From assembly GCA_947631545.1 (NCBI GenBank), contig CANRLS010000004.1, positions 1 to 64,000 on the forward strand: DNA of 64,000 bases, read 5' to 3'. The notes beneath the pieces are model-generated. The model did not search any database. It was not told the DNA's origin and saw only the letters and a list, made by a program, of their open reading frames with translations. Both the position numbers and the translations under genes were made by a program. Numbering within the stretch: the stretch's first letter is position 1; the number at the start of each line of letters is the position of its first letter. This document shows positions 28,491-60,679 of this stretch, in pieces. The stretch comes from an uncultured Atopobiaceae bacterium. Its GTDB lineage: Bacteria; Actinomycetota; Coriobacteriia; Coriobacteriales; Atopobiaceae.

Positions 28491-29441
28491 TCAGGGCAGA
28501 TCCACGGAGCCCTTGGTGAGCGCCTGGTAGGCGGCGCCGAGGGCGCCGGCATCGTTTCCGAGGGTCGCGGGCACGATGGGGGTTCCCCGGCCCGCCGGCA
28601 TGACGCGGGCGACGAACTCCTCCCGAAGGAGCGGCCCGAAGAGGTCGAAGGCGCCGCTCATGCCGCCGCCGATCACGAAGGCGCCCGGGTTCACGGTCAC
28701 GGCCACGCCGGCCAGTGCGCGGGCGAGGTAGGTGGCCATGTCGGCCACGGCGGCGTTCGCAGGGGCGTCTCCCTTGCGCGCCGCCTCGAAGATCGGCAGC
28801 GCATGGGCCTCGTGCTCGAGCGGCACCGGCTCCACGCCCTGCTCCTCGCAGTGCTTCTTGTAGAGGTAGACGAGGCCGCGGCTGCTGGCGTACATCTCGA
28901 GGCAGCCCTTGAGCCCGCAGTTGCACTGGCGACCGTCGGGCTCCACGTTGAAGTGCCCGAGCTCGCCGGCCATGCCGTCAATGCCCACGACGATCTTGCC
29001 ATCGACCACGACGCCGGCGCCCACGCCGGTGCCGAGCGTCACGAAGACGAGGCTCGAGGTGCCGGTGCCGGCGCCCTTCCAGAGCTCGCCCAGCGCCGCC
29101 GCATTGGCGTCGTTGATGGGCCAGACGCCCGCCCCGGGGAACACGTTCTTCAGCTCCTCCATGAGGCCCGGCAGGTCGAGGGCGATGTTGGGCGCTTGGA
29201 TGAGGCGATCGTCCGGCGAGACGACGCCGGGGATGGCGAGGCCCACGTCGCGGACGCGGTCGATGTCGTCGCCGGCCACCGATCCGATGGCGTGGGCGAC
29301 CTTCGCGATCTCCTCCTCGGTGGTCATGTGCTCGGTGCGCACGGCCGTCTGCGAGAGGATCTCGCCCTGCAGGGAGATGAGCGCCGCCTTGACGGTGGTC
29401 CCTCCGATATCGATGCCGACGAGCAGATCCTTACCGGGCAT
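28491..29441 (-). CDS. ROK-family sugar kinase (glucokinase-like)
   Basis: A 316-residue cytoplasmic ROK kinase. It has the phosphate loop Gly-Ile-Asp-Ile-Gly-Gly-Thr-Thr at about 9-16, catalytic Asp in Ile-Asn-Asp-Ala-Asn-Ala-Ala (about 107-113), Thr-Leu-Gly-Thr-Gly-Val-Gly, and the ROK zinc motif Gly-His ... Cys-Asn-Cys-Gly-Leu-Lys-Gly-Cys at about 165-182. Glucose is the commonest substrate, but N-acetyl sugars are possible. The start at 29441 overlaps the ddl-like stop as TGATG, so the two genes are coupled. Confidence 0.9.
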   Translation of the reverse strand: MPGKDLLVGIDIGGTTVKAALISLQGEILSQTAVRTEHMTTEEEIAKVAHAIGSVAGDDIDRVRDVGLAIPGVVSPDDRLIQAPNIALDLPGLMEELKNVFPGAGVWPINDANAAALGELWKGAGTGTSSLVFVTLGTGVGAGVVVDGKIVVGIDGMAGELGHFNVEPDGRQCNCGLKGCLEMYASSRGLVYLYKKHCEEQGVEPVPLEHEAHALPIFEAARKGDAPANAAVADMATYLARALAGVAVTVNPGAFVIGGGMSGAFDLFGPLLREEFVARVMPAGRGTPIVPATLGNDAGALGAAYQALTKGSVDLP

Positions 29442-54593: not shown

Positions 54594-57500
54594 ATGGAAT
54601 CCAATCTCAACGTGGGCGATGCGCTCCACGGATTCAAGCTCGATACCGCGGAAGACGTGCGCGAGATCCGGGGCAGGGCCTACGTGTTCACCCACGAGGC
54701 GACGGGGGCGCGCCTGCTCTGGCTCGCCAACGACGACACGGAGCGCGCCTTCTCCATCGCCTTCAAGACGCCTCCCGCCGATGACACCGGCGTCTTCCAC
54801 ATCCTCGAGCACTCGGTTCTCGACGGGTCGCTCAAGTACCCGGTGAAGGAGCCCTTCGTCGAGCTCCTGAAGACCTCCATGGCCACCTTCATCAACGCGC
54901 TCACCTTCCCCGACAAGACGATGTATCCCGTCTCGTCCACCAACGTGGACGACCTCGAGAACCTCATGGACGTGTACCTTGACGCCGTCTTCCATCCGGC
55001 GCTCCACGAGCGCGAGGACATCTTCCGGCAGGAGGGCTGGCATCTCGAGCTCGAGAGCCCGGAGGCGCCGCTCGCGCTGAACGGCGTTGTCTTGAACGAG
55101 ATGAAGGGCGCCCTCGCCGATCCCGACGATGTGCTCTTCCTCGAGGTGGAGCGGGCGCTCTTCCCCGACACCTGCTACCGCTGGGAGAGCGGCGGCGATC
55201 CCAAGGCGATCCCCACCCTCACCTACGAGTCCTACTGCGACACCCATCGCCGCCACTACCAGCCGGCGAACGCCCACGTGGTGCTCTACGGCGACCTCGA
55301 CATCGACCGTGAGCTGGCATTCCTCGACGAGCGGCTCTCCCTGGCCCCGATGCCCGACGAGGGCGGCCCGAACCCGCTCGACCTCCAGGCCCCCACGGGC
55401 ATCGTCGAGCGCCACGAGACGATGCCCATGGCGCCCGAGCACGCGGCGGCGGCCCTCGGGTTCGTCTTCGCCGAGGCCAAGGACCACGAGCGGGTGCTCG
55501 CCGCCGATATCCTCGTCCAGGCCCTCTGCGGCTCCAACGAGGCGCCGCTCAAGCGAGCGATCCTCGACGCCAACCTCGGCGACGACTTCGTCGCCTATCT
55601 CGTCGACTCCACGGCCCAGCCCTTCGTGATCTTCGAGCTCAAGGGAGCCAAGCGCTGGACCACCGAGGCCTTCCGCGCGGCCCTCCACGAGGTGGCGACC
55701 AAGCTCGCCACGGAGGGCATCGGCCGCGATCGCCTGGAGGCGGCGATCTCGCGGGCGGAGTTCATGCTGCGAGAGGGCAGCTTCGGCTACCCCGACGGCA
55801 TCCACCTCGCCATGGCATCCCTCTCGAGCTGGCTCTACGACGAGGACGACCCCCTCTCCTACGTGCGCTACGAGGAGGACTTCAAGCGCCTGCGCGAGGG
55901 CCTCGACACCGGGCTCTTCGAGGAGCTCCTCACCCAGATCGTCAACTCCAACCACGCCTGCCTCGTCGACATCCGCCCTTCGGAGACCACGGCCGCGGAC
56001 GAGGAGGCCGCCAAGCTCGCCGAGTACAAGGCCACGCTCACGAAGGAGGAGCTCGAGGCGCTCTGCGCCGAGACCGCGCGCCTCCACGCCGAGCAGGCCA
56101 AGCCCGACGACCCCGAGGCCATCCGGACGCTCCCGCGCCTCGAGGTGGCGGAGATCGGCGACGCTGCGGCCGATCCCGACCAGGCGACCATGGACGCCCC
56201 GGTGCCCACGACCGTCTACGACATCGAGACCCACGGCATCGATTACGTGAACTGCTACTTCGACCTCTGCGGCTTCGAGGCCGAGGACCTCCCCTACCTC
56301 TCGCTCATGGCATCGCTTCTTGGCAAGCTCGGCACCTCGCGGCACTCCGCGGCCGAGCTCGACACCCTCATCGAGTCGAAGCTCGGGAGCTTCTCGTGCT
56401 CCTTAGAGTCGCTGTACGCGCAGGGGACAGACGATGCGGCCCGCACCCACCTCACCTGCTCCGCAGCGGCGCTCTCGAGCAACAAGCGCTGGCTCGCCGA
56501 GCTGCCCCGCGAGCTCTGGCTCGAGACCGACTTCTCGGACATCGAGCGCATCCGGGCCCTCCTGGTGCAGGCGAAGATCGCGCTCGAGCAATCGTTCATC
56601 ACGTCCGGGCACGTGGTGGCGCTCTCGCGCGTGGCGGCCCAGAGGAACGCCTCCGCCAAGATCTCGCAGCTCATCGGCGGCATCGACTACTATCGCTTCG
56701 TCGTCGATATCCTGGAGCGCTTCGACGAGCGCGCGGTGGGGCTCTCGGAGCGACTCGCCAGCGTGGCGGAGCGGGCCTTCTCGACGGGCAACCTCACCAT
56801 GAGCTTCGCCGGAGAAGATCCCGAGGCCTACCTCGCAGAGGATCCCCTGAAGGGGCTGCCCTCCACGGAGACGGCGCCCGAGCGCCTCGTGGTGGGGCTC
56901 TCCGGTCCGGCGAGGGAGTTCTACGCCGTTCCCGCCGGCGTGGATTTCGTGGGCGAGGGGGCGCTCCTCTCCGACGCCGACGAGGCCTATGACGGCCGCT
57001 GGCTCGTGCTCGGCCGGGCGCTCACCTACAGCTACCTCTGGAACGAGGTGCGGGTGCTCGGCGGCGCCTACGGCGCGGGGCTCCAGGTGAGCGATGCCGG
57101 CACGCTCGGCTTCTACTCGTTCCGCGACCCGGCCGTGGATCCCACGCTCGAGCGCTTCGACCGGGCGGCGGACTGGCTCGCGGAGGCGTCCCTCTCCAAG
57201 CGCGACGTCGATGGCTACATCGTGGCCTGCGTGGGCGCCCTCGACCGTCCCCAGAAGCCGAGGGGCCTCATGCGGCGCCTCGACACGAACCGCATCATCG
57301 GGCGCCCCGACGGCTGGCGCGACCGCATCCGCTCCGAGGTGCTCGAAGCGACCCCGGACGCGTTGCGCGCCCTTTCCGAACCTTTAAGAAAGCTGATGCT
57401 CGAGAGGGGTATCTGTGTCCTAGGCCAGCGGGAGCTCCTGGATGCGTCGAAGGAAGGCGCCGAGGTCCAGACGCTCGTGGCCGACGGATCGGGAGGTGGG

Positions 57501-57602
57501 CCGGATGCCAGCGCAAACCAAATCCGATGGGGACAAGGTCTCGGTCAGGCTGCTCGACTACTGCATGAACGCGCTCGACTACTGCATTCCCACGCGTCCT
57601 GA
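54594..57602 (+). CDS. M16C zinc metallopeptidase (presequence-protease type)
   Basis: A 1002-residue inverzincin of the M16C subfamily. The inverted zinc motif His-Ile-Leu-Glu-His is at about residues 71-75, with the downstream Glu in Asn-Glu-Met-Lys-Gly-Ala near 167-171. The four-domain layout and about 970-residue core match PreP/Cym1 relatives that degrade unstructured peptides. No signal peptide is seen. After the usual C-terminal Cys-Val-Leu-Gly-x-x-Glu-Leu the frame runs on about 50 residues with low-complexity sequence and overlaps the next gene by 98 bases, suggesting a lost stop codon. Confidence 0.88.
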   Translation: MESNLNVGDALHGFKLDTAEDVREIRGRAYVFTHEATGARLLWLANDDTERAFSIAFKTPPADDTGVFHILEHSVLDGSLKYPVKEPFVELLKTSMATFINALTFPDKTMYPVSSTNVDDLENLMDVYLDAVFHPALHEREDIFRQEGWHLELESPEAPLALNGVVLNEMKGALADPDDVLFLEVERALFPDTCYRWESGGDPKAIPTLTYESYCDTHRRHYQPANAHVVLYGDLDIDRELAFLDERLSLAPMPDEGGPNPLDLQAPTGIVERHETMPMAPEHAAAALGFVFAEAKDHERVLAADILVQALCGSNEAPLKRAILDANLGDDFVAYLVDSTAQPFVIFELKGAKRWTTEAFRAALHEVATKLATEGIGRDRLEAAISRAEFMLREGSFGYPDGIHLAMASLSSWLYDEDDPLSYVRYEEDFKRLREGLDTGLFEELLTQIVNSNHACLVDIRPSETTAADEEAAKLAEYKATLTKEELEALCAETARLHAEQAKPDDPEAIRTLPRLEVAEIGDAAADPDQATMDAPVPTTVYDIETHGIDYVNCYFDLCGFEAEDLPYLSLMASLLGKLGTSRHSAAELDTLIESKLGSFSCSLESLYAQGTDDAARTHLTCSAAALSSNKRWLAELPRELWLETDFSDIERIRALLVQAKIALEQSFITSGHVVALSRVAAQRNASAKISQLIGGIDYYRFVVDILERFDERAVGLSERLASVAERAFSTGNLTMSFAGEDPEAYLAEDPLKGLPSTETAPERLVVGLSGPAREFYAVPAGVDFVGEGALLSDADEAYDGRWLVLGRALTYSYLWNEVRVLGGAYGAGLQVSDAGTLGFYSFRDPAVDPTLERFDRAADWLAEASLSKRDVDGYIVACVGALDRPQKPRGLMRRLDTNRIIGRPDGWRDRIRSEVLEATPDALRALSEPLRKLMLERGICVLGQRELLDASKEGAEVQTLVADGSGGGPDASANQIRWGQGLGQAARLLHERARLLHSHAS

Positions 57603-58908
57603 CATCACGCACTACTGGCTCATCAAGGCCTTTCAGGTGAAGCGCGCCTGGACGCGCGCCTTCCCAGACAAGTGGATGCATCCGAGCGCGCTCCTGGCGC
57701 AGAACCTCGCGCTCGACACCGTGACGAGCGCCCTCGAAGACCCTGAGAACAGCGTCTTCACGAGCATCTTCATGCCCAACGAGATCTTCCACTCGCTGGG
57801 CCTCAAGCCCCTCATCGCCGAGGCCGTGGCCGACTTCATCGCCGGGGCCCACGCGGAGCTTGGCTTCACCATCTACGCCGAGGACCAGGGCGTGCCCCAG
57901 ACCTACTGCTCCTTCCACAAGGTGCTCCTCGGCGCCACCATGGCCGAGGTCTTCGGCGTCTCGCCCCTCATCGCCAACTGCTCGGTGGCCTGCGACGCCA
58001 ACAACATCACCTTCCGGATGCTCGCGAACCGCTTCGGCGTGGAGCACGTCTACATCGACGTGCCCGGCGAGTACGACGAGGAGGGCTGCTTCTATGTGGC
58101 GGAGCAGCTGCGCGAGATGGCCGAGGCGGCGCAGGACATCTACCACCGCCCTCTCGACGAGAAGGTCCTCAAGGAGAAGGTCGCCCGCTCCCAGCGCACG
58201 CTCGACAACCTCACGCGCTCGCTCAGGCTCCGCGTCGGCCGCTACATCAAGAACAACATGGGCCTCGAGATGCAGCATGGGCTCTGCTTCCACACGCTCC
58301 TCGGCGAGCCCGAGTGCGAGCGGCTCTCGCGCCTCATGATCCGCGACTACCTGAACGCCGAGCCCTTCGACGGCGTGAACGTCGTCTGGAGCTCCACCAC
58401 CCCCTTCTTCTGCATCCCCCTGCAGCGGCTCCTCGACGTGAACACCGACCAGCAGCTCATCGCGAGCGACATGTGCTTCGACCAGGTGAGCTTCACCGGC
58501 TGGAACCACACCGCCGACGAGCCCTACCTCGCCATGGCCGAGCGCCTCATCAGGGACTCCTACAACGGCCCCGGCATCCGCCGCGTCGATCGCATGGCCG
58601 AGATCTGCGAGCGCGCGCAGGCCGATGGCGCCGTCTGCTTCTGCCACTGGGGCTGCAAGGAGACGATGGGCGTCTCGCAGCTCATGGTGCGGGAGCTCGA
58701 GTCGGCCGGCTATCCCACCATCGTCATCGACGGCGACGGCTGCGACCGCGGGAACTTCCCCGGCGGTCAGGCGGCCACGCGCCTCGGCGCCTTCCTCGAG
58801 ATGCTCCACGCCAAGAAGGACGCCCGCGATGCCGAGGCCTTCGAGCAGGAGCTCGAGGAGGCCCTGGAAGGCGTCGCCGACGAGATGGGCACGGGCGATG
58901 TCCGCTGA
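57505..58908 (+). CDS. 2-hydroxyacyl-CoA dehydratase subunit-like Fe-S protein
   Basis: A 467-residue HgdB/FldBC-type protein. Conserved cysteines appear in Tyr-Cys-Ile-Pro-Thr-Arg-Pro, Gln-Thr-Tyr-Cys-Ser-Phe-His, Asn-Cys-Ser-Val-Ala-Cys-Asp and Cys-His-Trp-Gly-Cys-Lys, consistent with [4Fe-4S] ligands. The start at 57505 follows GGGAGG; it lies inside the end of the M16C gene. Its stop overlaps the following gene by 11 bases. Such subunits dehydrate (R)-2-hydroxyacyl-CoAs in amino-acid fermentation, or belong to double-cubane cluster proteins reducing other substrates. No CoA transferase or acyl-CoA dehydrogenase is nearby to name the substrate. Confidence 0.82.
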   Translation: MPAQTKSDGDKVSVRLLDYCMNALDYCIPTRPDITHYWLIKAFQVKRAWTRAFPDKWMHPSALLAQNLALDTVTSALEDPENSVFTSIFMPNEIFHSLGLKPLIAEAVADFIAGAHAELGFTIYAEDQGVPQTYCSFHKVLLGATMAEVFGVSPLIANCSVACDANNITFRMLANRFGVEHVYIDVPGEYDEEGCFYVAEQLREMAEAAQDIYHRPLDEKVLKEKVARSQRTLDNLTRSLRLRVGRYIKNNMGLEMQHGLCFHTLLGEPECERLSRLMIRDYLNAEPFDGVNVVWSSTTPFFCIPLQRLLDVNTDQQLIASDMCFDQVSFTGWNHTADEPYLAMAERLIRDSYNGPGIRRVDRMAEICERAQADGAVCFCHWGCKETMGVSQLMVRELESAGYPTIVIDGDGCDRGNFPGGQAATRLGAFLEMLHAKKDARDAEAFEQELEEALEGVADEMGTGDVR

Positions 58909-60679
58909 CGTCGGGGCCGAGGCCGCCTGGCCCCCGAAAAGCCCGCAGAGCGGCCAGGGCGAGCCCATCGTCTGGTACCCCTGCAAGTACGCGCCCGTCG
59001 AGCTCCTGGCGGGCTTCGGCGCCGAGTGCCGTCCCGTCGACTTCGAGGCCGACACCTTCGAGGACGCCGACCGCCTCGCCCATCCCAACCTCTGCGGGTT
59101 CGGCAAGTCGCTCATCGCCTTCGCGCTCAAGCCGGAGGTGCGGGCCCTCGTGCTCACCAGCTGCTGCGACGTGATGCGCCGCGTCTACGACGTGCTCTCC
59201 GCCGAGGGCTGCCTCGACTTCCTTTGGATCGTCGACCTCCCCCACCTCACGGGGCCTCGCGAGCGGCTCCGGATGAGGAGGGAGCTCGAGCGGCTCGCCA
59301 AAGGCTGGAGGGCCTATTCCGGGCGGGAGTTCGACGTGGGCCGCGCCATCGCCTCGTTCGCGCCGCCCCTCGAGCGCCAGGACGAGCGCGTGACGCTCCT
59401 CGGCGCCCATGGGCCGGCCTCCCTCTACGAGCTCACCGAAGCGGCCATCAGCCTCCCCGTCGAGAACCTCACCTGCACGGGCGGGCGTCGCATCGCCGCG
59501 CCGCCCGTGCATCTGGCCCAGGACGCCCGGAACAAGGCCTGCCCCGAGCATTGCGAGACGGACCTCCCGGAGTCCCCCGAGCCCCTCGAGGCCTTCATCG
59601 ACTGGTACGCCGACGCGCTCCTCGACCAGACCCCCTGCATGCGCATGGCCGACATCGGCGGGCGCGAGGGCCAGGTGGGCGCCCCCGGGCAGCGGGGCGT
59701 CGTCTACCACACGATGAAGTTCTGCGACTACTACGGATTCGAGTACCTCACCACCCACGGCGACGCCCCGGTGCCGATGCTCAAGGTCGAGACCGACGGC
59801 ACGCGCCAGAGCGTGGGCCAGCTCCGCACACGATTGGAAGCCTTCGACGAAACGCTGGTTGGCATGAATAGCGCGCGAAACGTCCCCAAGGGCGATGGGC
59901 CCGTCTACGTGATGGGCGTCGATTCCGGATCCACCTCCACCGACGCCGTCATCGTCGACGGCGAGGGCAACGTGGTGGCCTCGCAGATCCTACCCACGGG
60001 CGCCAAGGCCACGCGGAGCGCCCGCATGGTCATGGACATGGTGATGAAGAAGGCGGGCCTCGCGGCCGATGACCTCACCCTCACCGTGGCGACCGGCTAC
60101 GGGCGCGATTCCATCCCCGACGCCGACACCCAGATCACCGAGATCACCTGCCATGCGCGCGGCGCGCGCGTGCTCGCCCCCGACGTGCGCACGATCATCG
60201 ACATCGGGGGCCAGGACTCAAAGGTGATCAAGCTCGACGAGGACGGCGCCGTGGAGAACTTCGTCATGAACGACAAGTGCGCCGCCGGCACCGGGCGCTT
60301 CCTCGAGATGATGGCCAACACGATGGAGATGGACCTCGACCGCTTCTGCACCGAGGGCCTCAAGTGGAAGCACGAGGTGAAGATCAGCTCCATGTGCACG
60401 GTCTTCGCCGAGAGCGAGGTGGTCTCGCTCGTGGCCGACGACACCCCCGTGCCCGATATCATCCACGGCCTCGACCGATCGGTGGGCATCAAGGTCTCGA
60501 GCCTCTCGAAGCGCGTGAAGGGCGAGCCTCCCTACCTCATGACGGGCGGCGTGGCCAAGAACGCCGGCGTCGTCGCCGCCATCGAGGAGGTCTTCGAAGA
60601 GCCCATCCAGACCTCCGACGAGTCGCAGCTCTGCGGCGCCCTCGGCGCGGCGCTCCTCGGCTTGGAGAGCCTGGGCTAG
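58898..60679 (+). CDS. Fusion of dehydratase subunit and ATP-dependent activase
   Basis: A 593-residue two-domain protein. Residues about 20-320 resemble a second 2-hydroxyacyl-CoA dehydratase subunit (Thr-Ser-Cys-Cys-Asp-Val-Met-Arg-Arg-Val-Tyr-Asp near 87-98; Met-Lys-Phe-Cys-Asp-Tyr-Tyr-Gly near 273-280). Residues about 336-593 are a HgdC/BadF-type ASKHA activase: Gly-Val-Asp-Ser-Gly-Ser-Thr-Ser-Thr-Asp at 340-349, Asp-Ile-Gly-Gly-Gln-Asp-Ser-Lys near 435-442, and cluster cysteines Cys461 (Asn-Asp-Lys-Cys-Ala-Ala-Gly) and Cys500. The activase uses ATP to push an electron into the dehydratase. Normally separate, the two are joined here. It starts at 58898 inside the previous stop. Confidence 0.85.
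   Translation: MSADVGAEAAWPPKSPQSGQGEPIVWYPCKYAPVELLAGFGAECRPVDFEADTFEDADRLAHPNLCGFGKSLIAFALKPEVRALVLTSCCDVMRRVYDVLSAEGCLDFLWIVDLPHLTGPRERLRMRRELERLAKGWRAYSGREFDVGRAIASFAPPLERQDERVTLLGAHGPASLYELTEAAISLPVENLTCTGGRRIAAPPVHLAQDARNKACPEHCETDLPESPEPLEAFIDWYADALLDQTPCMRMADIGGREGQVGAPGQRGVVYHTMKFCDYYGFEYLTTHGDAPVPMLKVETDGTRQSVGQLRTRLEAFDETLVGMNSARNVPKGDGPVYVMGVDSGSTSTDAVIVDGEGNVVASQILPTGAKATRSARMVMDMVMKKAGLAADDLTLTVATGYGRDSIPDADTQITEITCHARGARVLAPDVRTIIDIGGQDSKVIKLDEDGAVENFVMNDKCAAGTGRFLEMMANTMEMDLDRFCTEGLKWKHEVKISSMCTVFAESEVVSLVADDTPVPDIIHGLDRSVGIKVSSLSKRVKGEPPYLMTGGVAKNAGVVAAIEEVFEEPIQTSDESQLCGALGAALLGLESLG

Follow-up and report, generated by a model that had tools for sequence, protein, structure and literature searches.

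A two-gene system of the BCR/HAD superfamily with its activase fused to a predicted double-cubane subunit

The two genes and their products

The window analyzed here, a 64,000-nucleotide stretch from an uncultured Atopobiaceae bacterium (contig CANRLS010000004.1), harbors two coupled genes on its forward strand, hereafter A and B, which encode relatives of the benzoyl-CoA reductases (BCR) and 2-hydroxyacyl-CoA dehydratases (HAD). Gene A (57505..58908, ATG at 57505 and TGA at 58906-58908) encodes an HGD-D subunit of 467 amino acids, and its Shine-Dalgarno sequence GGGAGG (57491..57496, +) lies within the preceding peptidase gene, 8 bases ahead of the ATG. Gene B (58898..60679, +; ATG at 58898, TAG at 60677-60679) encodes a fused protein of 593 amino acids in a single frame. 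It begins inside the last codons of A, 58898 against 58908, an overlap of 11 bases. Three parts can be distinguished in B: an N-terminal domain (residues ~21-325; 58958..59872, +), assigned by profile, model and cysteines to the BzdN/DCCP-like double-cubane subunits; a flexible linker of ~15 residues (about 322-335; 59861..59902, +), with low pLDDT in the predicted structure; and an ASKHA ATPase domain, the activase (residues 336-593; 59903..60676, +), recognized by Pfam, a cysteine pair and the model.

Pfam assigns A to PF06050 (HGD-D, 6e-45), and B to PF06050 at residues 29-147 and over a second stretch (2.9e-25), as well as to PF01869 (BcrAD_BadFG) at 340-588 (2.5e-60), all above the curated cut-offs; DUF2229 was not found by Pfam in either protein. 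By this combination of PF06050 with PF01869, A and B are, as far as sequence can tell, members of the BCR/HAD superfamily. An initial annotation of this DNA had related residues 1-320 of B to dehydratase subunits. The PF06050 match bears this out, as does the comparison of the N-domain profile with the PDB, which returned DCCP (3e-22), HadC (1e-11) and BzdN (4e-7). The AlphaFold model of A (mean pLDDT 94.4) has HadB and BzdO/MbdO as its best Foldseek matches, with TM up to 0.80. That of B (mean pLDDT 90.0) retrieves first the HgdC/HadI and BCR activases and then, with the N-domain, DCCP, BzdN and HadC; the Foldseek alignments place its activase at 44-47% identity to HAD activases.

None of the equivalog models compared with A and B reached its cut-off. 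The HadB and HadC models (NF052455, NF052456) gave 35 and 24.5 bits for cut-offs of 750 and 700; the class I benzoyl-CoA reductase models (TIGR02260, TIGR03191, TIGR03190, TIGR03192) gave 10.6-187 bits for cut-offs of 380-487; and the DCCP model (NF040772) gave 51.6 for B and 35.2 for A, for a cut-off of 350.

Conserved cysteines and predicted clusters

In BzdO, the [4Fe-4S] cluster is bound by Cys95/128/380 (PMC11971306). Across 46 A sequences, C135, C163, C384 and E106 are invariant; C135 and C384 align with C95 and C380 of BzdO, C163 is offset from C128 by at most one residue, and E106 aligns with the catalytic Glu65. These motifs point to A as a subunit of the catalytic (BzdO/HadB-like) type, with one predicted [4Fe-4S] cluster.

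The corresponding [8Fe-9S] ligands of BzdN are Cys36/73/100/263/293/327 (PMC11971306). With the B-domain profile, C36, C73, C100 and C327 align with C29, C66, C90 and C276 of B. When a bona fide DCCP (491 bits with NF040772, above the equivalog cut-off) is taken as the reference, the six ligand-position cysteines align with B C29/C66/C90/C193/C247/C276 (hhalign 99.9%, E 2e-33). All six, together with C89, are invariant in 53 B sequences, which argues for an N-domain of the double-cubane (BzdN/DCCP-like) type and a predicted [8Fe-9S] carrier.

Activases of this superfamily are dimers built around their [4Fe-4S] cluster. In the same 53 sequences, C461 and C500 of B are invariant; they align with Cys127 and Cys166 of HgdC, so the activase of B should also dimerize around one [4Fe-4S]. 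If it must be a dimer, the fusion would place two A/B heads on each activase dimer.

Distribution, copy number and an internal start

A scan of 84,980 species genomes yielded 393 relatives, and the locus counts below refer to the best 80 of these, in named genomes. They belong to Atopobiaceae, their near relatives and Bacillota (Flavonifractor, Gemmiger, Blautia, Roseburia, Desulfosporosinus). In 80/80 of these loci, A lies directly upstream and B is fused; an artefact of frame or assembly can thus be ruled out as the source of the fusion. The single-frame fusion was also seen in each of the 24 Atopobiaceae genomes that were examined, although one of the contigs stops inside the activase. A survey of 250 Coriobacteriia genomes showed B-like N-domains across much of the Atopobiaceae and in a few others. 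For the phylum of Desulfosporosinus, 300 genomes gave 18 full-length subfamily matches, all of them in frames of 539-640 codons, a length compatible with the fusion. The arrangement put forward by the initial annotation, with a second HGD-D subunit and the activase in one polypeptide and two genes in all, is therefore confirmed in the window and well beyond it, and so is the coupling of the genes. Internal stops seen in A of L071, L109, L137 and L223 merely reflect a tblastn alignment extending beyond the true stop; L084 was excluded from this check.

A distant relative from the phylum of Desulfosporosinus (L249:4431-7498) carries three separate genes in the order B-A-activase. Its A has the CSFH and HWGC motifs, its short B domain has the six cysteines, and its activase is a related one (50%). 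With these unfused genes, the fusion is probably derived, and the layout of L249 is likely to be close to the ancestral one. The system is occasionally lost: in L250:4230-7016, a transposase-like open reading frame of 312 amino acids splits gene B, and in L251 B is frame-shifted.

The literature searched yielded no description of the fused A-B pair or of its two-gene layout, which thus appears to be undescribed. The covalent fusion of an activase is already known as such, in enzymes with an assigned function, namely the plasmalogen synthase PlsA and the glycerol ester reductase Ger (PMC12838417, PMC13274423). As the A-B fusion is, moreover, fixed in a large family, the exceptional character that the initial annotation gave to it is not retained.

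Copy numbers were surveyed in 50 genomes, in which B, where present, is single-copy. A is absent from 14/14 Atopobiaceae genomes tested that lack B, and several genomes with a single B carry two A genes. The second copy is in tandem in genera g9, g20 and g113 (a fragment in g113), and unlinked in g1 (the genus of the window), g2, g7 and g16. In the genome of the window, it lies on contig C71 (L187:2512-3849, -), with neither a B nor an activase of its own. In the tree, the unlinked copies group with full support as a single clade beside a linked A of another family, and the motif cysteines are kept, by motif match only, in the tandem and unlinked copies that were checked. A TM1586-type nitroreductase gene was observed near the unlinked A in 4/7 genomes. 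One B beside two A genes is most simply explained by a B that drives at least two catalytic subunits, and B may thus be shared by several A subunits.

The junction between the two parts of B was compared in a Bacillota set (L131-L182, e.g., L150 and L152) from Lachnospiraceae, Oscillospiraceae and Desulfosporosinus, the closest to the family of the window. In these B genes, an in-frame ATG (rarely GTG) is found 7-12 codons ahead of the activase motif GIDSGS, preceded by a purine-rich Shine-Dalgarno sequence, e.g., AAAGGAGG. Start and Shine-Dalgarno occur together in 31/36 non-redundant genes, versus 14.7% of random 12-codon windows from the same genes, and the element stays while the linker residues vary. 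A Shine-Dalgarno energy of <= -5.5 is reached by 31/32 junction starts versus 151/650 other ATGs (p 5e-18). This comparison with other in-frame starts is stronger evidence than shuffling of synonymous codons, which gives a modest excess (14/51 at p<=0.1; mean -7.6 vs -6.1), the codons for the linker residues being rich in purines in any case. The B gene of this Bacillota clade is therefore a place where a free activase is predicted besides the full fusion. No internal start with a Shine-Dalgarno sequence was found at the B junction of the window, and the element is not conserved in Atopobiaceae. It is also missing from 12 readable junctions among more distant loci (L229-L246) of a broader phylum scan, and is thus clade-limited.

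Proposed mechanism and competing readings

From the domain make-up, cysteine patterns, conservation, copy numbers and gene overlap, a working scheme can be proposed, in which the cluster types, the electron path, the ATP-driven transfer, the quaternary structure and the sharing of B are predictions. Two B activase domains would dimerize around a shared [4Fe-4S], with ferredoxin or flavodoxin as the electron donor. ATP hydrolysis would then drive the electron, at very low potential, into the [8Fe-9S] double cubane of the B N-domain. The next acceptor would be the only [4Fe-4S] of A, a cluster with an open site, at which the substrate would be reduced. With the activase attached to the subunit that stores the electron rather than to the catalytic one, B would constitute a self-contained power unit and A an exchangeable specificity part, in keeping with the genomes that have two A genes for a single B. 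The six double-cubane cysteines of B, the three [4Fe-4S] cysteines of A and the failure to reach any equivalog cut-off together favor a strong reductase: within the BCR/HAD family, A-B is probably a radical-type reductase that works anaerobically, is driven by ATP and has [4Fe-4S] and [8Fe-9S] clusters, and not a 2-hydroxyacyl-CoA dehydratase. Such an enzyme is predicted to be oxygen-sensitive and ATP-powered.

The stoichiometry may differ between lineages. For the lineage of the window, the prediction is limited to the fused form, so that two A/B heads would have to be served by one activase dimer. A tentative picture, which we hold as possible although less than probable, is that of an asymmetric or two-headed machine: in the Bacillota clade with the internal start, one gene would yield both the full fusion and a free activase, and a heterodimer of the two could give 1:1:1 A:B:activase; in Atopobiaceae, which would have lost or never had the start, one dimer would feed two tethered A/B heads and two different A subunits.

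Among the known systems, class I benzoyl-CoA reductase of the Bzd type (BzdNO with BzdPQ) likewise combines a heterodimer of a [4Fe-4S] catalytic and an [8Fe-9S] subunit with an ASKHA activase, and its cysteine patterns in both subunits and its Glu65 are kept in A-B, whose cluster type is read from the sequence. In A-B, however, the activase is fused to the double-cubane subunit and is homodimeric by necessity, the B domain is shorter, His131 is apparently replaced by Asn, the equivalog cut-offs are far off and no benzoyl-CoA pathway genes accompany the pair. DCCP with DCCP-R shares the six double-cubane positions and an activase partner, but DCCP pairs with itself and has its activase as a protein of its own, whereas A-B has a distinct catalytic partner and a fused activase. 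The fold of A and the activase are those of HadBC/HadI, the (R)-2-hydroxyisocaproyl-CoA dehydratase, and of HgdABC; in these enzymes, however, the beta subunit has lost the double cubane and the activase is a separate homodimer. PlsA(-PlsR) and Ger resemble A-B in uniting activase and reductase domains in one polypeptide, and are known in separate and fused forms: PlsA-PlsR is encoded by two genes in C. perfringens and by a single open reading frame in Enterococcaceae and Streptococcaceae (PMC12838417). Unlike A-B, they carry their one or two activase domains (PMC13274423) in a much longer chain with DUF2229, and they have no such HGD-D pair.

Several points weigh against the reductase scheme. 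If the one-residue alignment ambiguity is settled on the cysteine, the position of BzdO His131 is occupied in A by an invariant asparagine, N166, so that the chemistry of A would differ from that of benzoyl-CoA reductase. Nothing in BzdO or HadB corresponds to H138 of A or to the HW of its HWGC motif. Taken with the cysteine set of B, the motifs of A suggest a likeness to BzdNO in cluster layout and not in the active site. The middle helical bundle present in BzdN and DCCP is missing from the N-domain of B, whose cluster could therefore differ from a double cubane; C193 and C247 are assigned to DCCP ligand positions solely via alignment. The sharing of B with a second A is deduced from gene counts. 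Furthermore, no conserved neighbor hints at a substrate, the Bacillota loci giving only scattered DegV-like and MATE-transporter-like genes.

An ordinary 2-hydroxyacyl-CoA dehydratase with a tethered activase, in which ATP-driven priming is only occasional, is suggested by HadB as the best structural match of A and by the Pfam families shared with dehydratases. It is nevertheless unlikely, as B keeps the six double-cubane cysteines while double cubanes were lost in the heterodimeric HADs (PMC11971306), and the HadB/HadC equivalogs stay far below their cut-offs. In addition, if a single electron suffices to prime hundreds of turnovers (PMC6739815), it is difficult to see why the activase should be permanently tethered. 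There is no conserved Bacillota neighbor, and no HAD pathway genes (CoA-transferase, 2-hydroxyacid dehydrogenase, acyl-CoA dehydrogenase) were seen at the locus, where the neighbors were annotated in part with hidden Markov models. The dehydratase label of the initial annotation is abandoned on the first two of these grounds, while its suggestion that the substrate is not a standard amino-acid-derived 2-hydroxyacyl-CoA is probably right.

A PlsA/Ger-like enzyme reducing lipids or esters, with a non-CoA substrate, would be in keeping with the functionally assigned activase-reductase fusions of the same superfamily and with the A motifs H138, N166 and HWGC, unlike those of BzdO and HadB. It appears distinctly improbable: A-B lacks DUF2229, no lipid gene is linked to it, and the genome already encodes a 1570-aa PlsA/Ger-like protein (contig C7, L096:6416-11128, +). 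This protein combines DUF2229 with two PF01869 domains and is a candidate synthase of plasmalogens or glycerol ethers.

A reading of the upstream M16C peptidase and A-B as one functional module, e.g., in cofactor or protein quality control, draws on the overlap of the genes (98 bases are shared by the peptidase frame and A) and on the order M16C-A-B, found in every Atopobiaceae locus with A-B in two overlapping locus sets. Yet M16C is present in 20/20 Atopobiaceae genomes tested without A-B, is unlinked in five Coriobacteriia of another family that carry A-B, and adjoins A-B in none of the Bacillota loci. Such a module is thus extremely improbable and a functional link is rejected. The peptidase role in the initial annotation is dropped, and the association is one of synteny, perhaps with co-transcription.

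The probable reductase, A-B, is present in bacteria that are common in the gut (Blautia, Roseburia, Gemmiger, Flavonifractor, Olsenella), and the question of what free-standing double-cubane reductases do physiologically is still open (PMC11971306). In this family, two genes link a predicted double-cubane subunit with its ATP-driven activase and with a catalytic subunit dedicated to it. As the tether keeps the activase, the electron gun of the system, from diffusing off, it offers a convenient construct for studying the coupling between docking, ATP hydrolysis and the delivery of the electron, and the duplication of A beside a single B makes the idea of one power unit for several substrates directly testable.

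The neighboring M16C (PreP-like) peptidase gene (54594..57602, +) is not counted as part of the enzyme. Its last ~36 codons (57480-57602, +) exceed the usual end of such peptidases and reach into gene A, an overlap also present in two congeners. Elsewhere in the window, a ROK-family sugar kinase (about 28833-29420, -) gives a weak score with the activase model and is unrelated to A-B.

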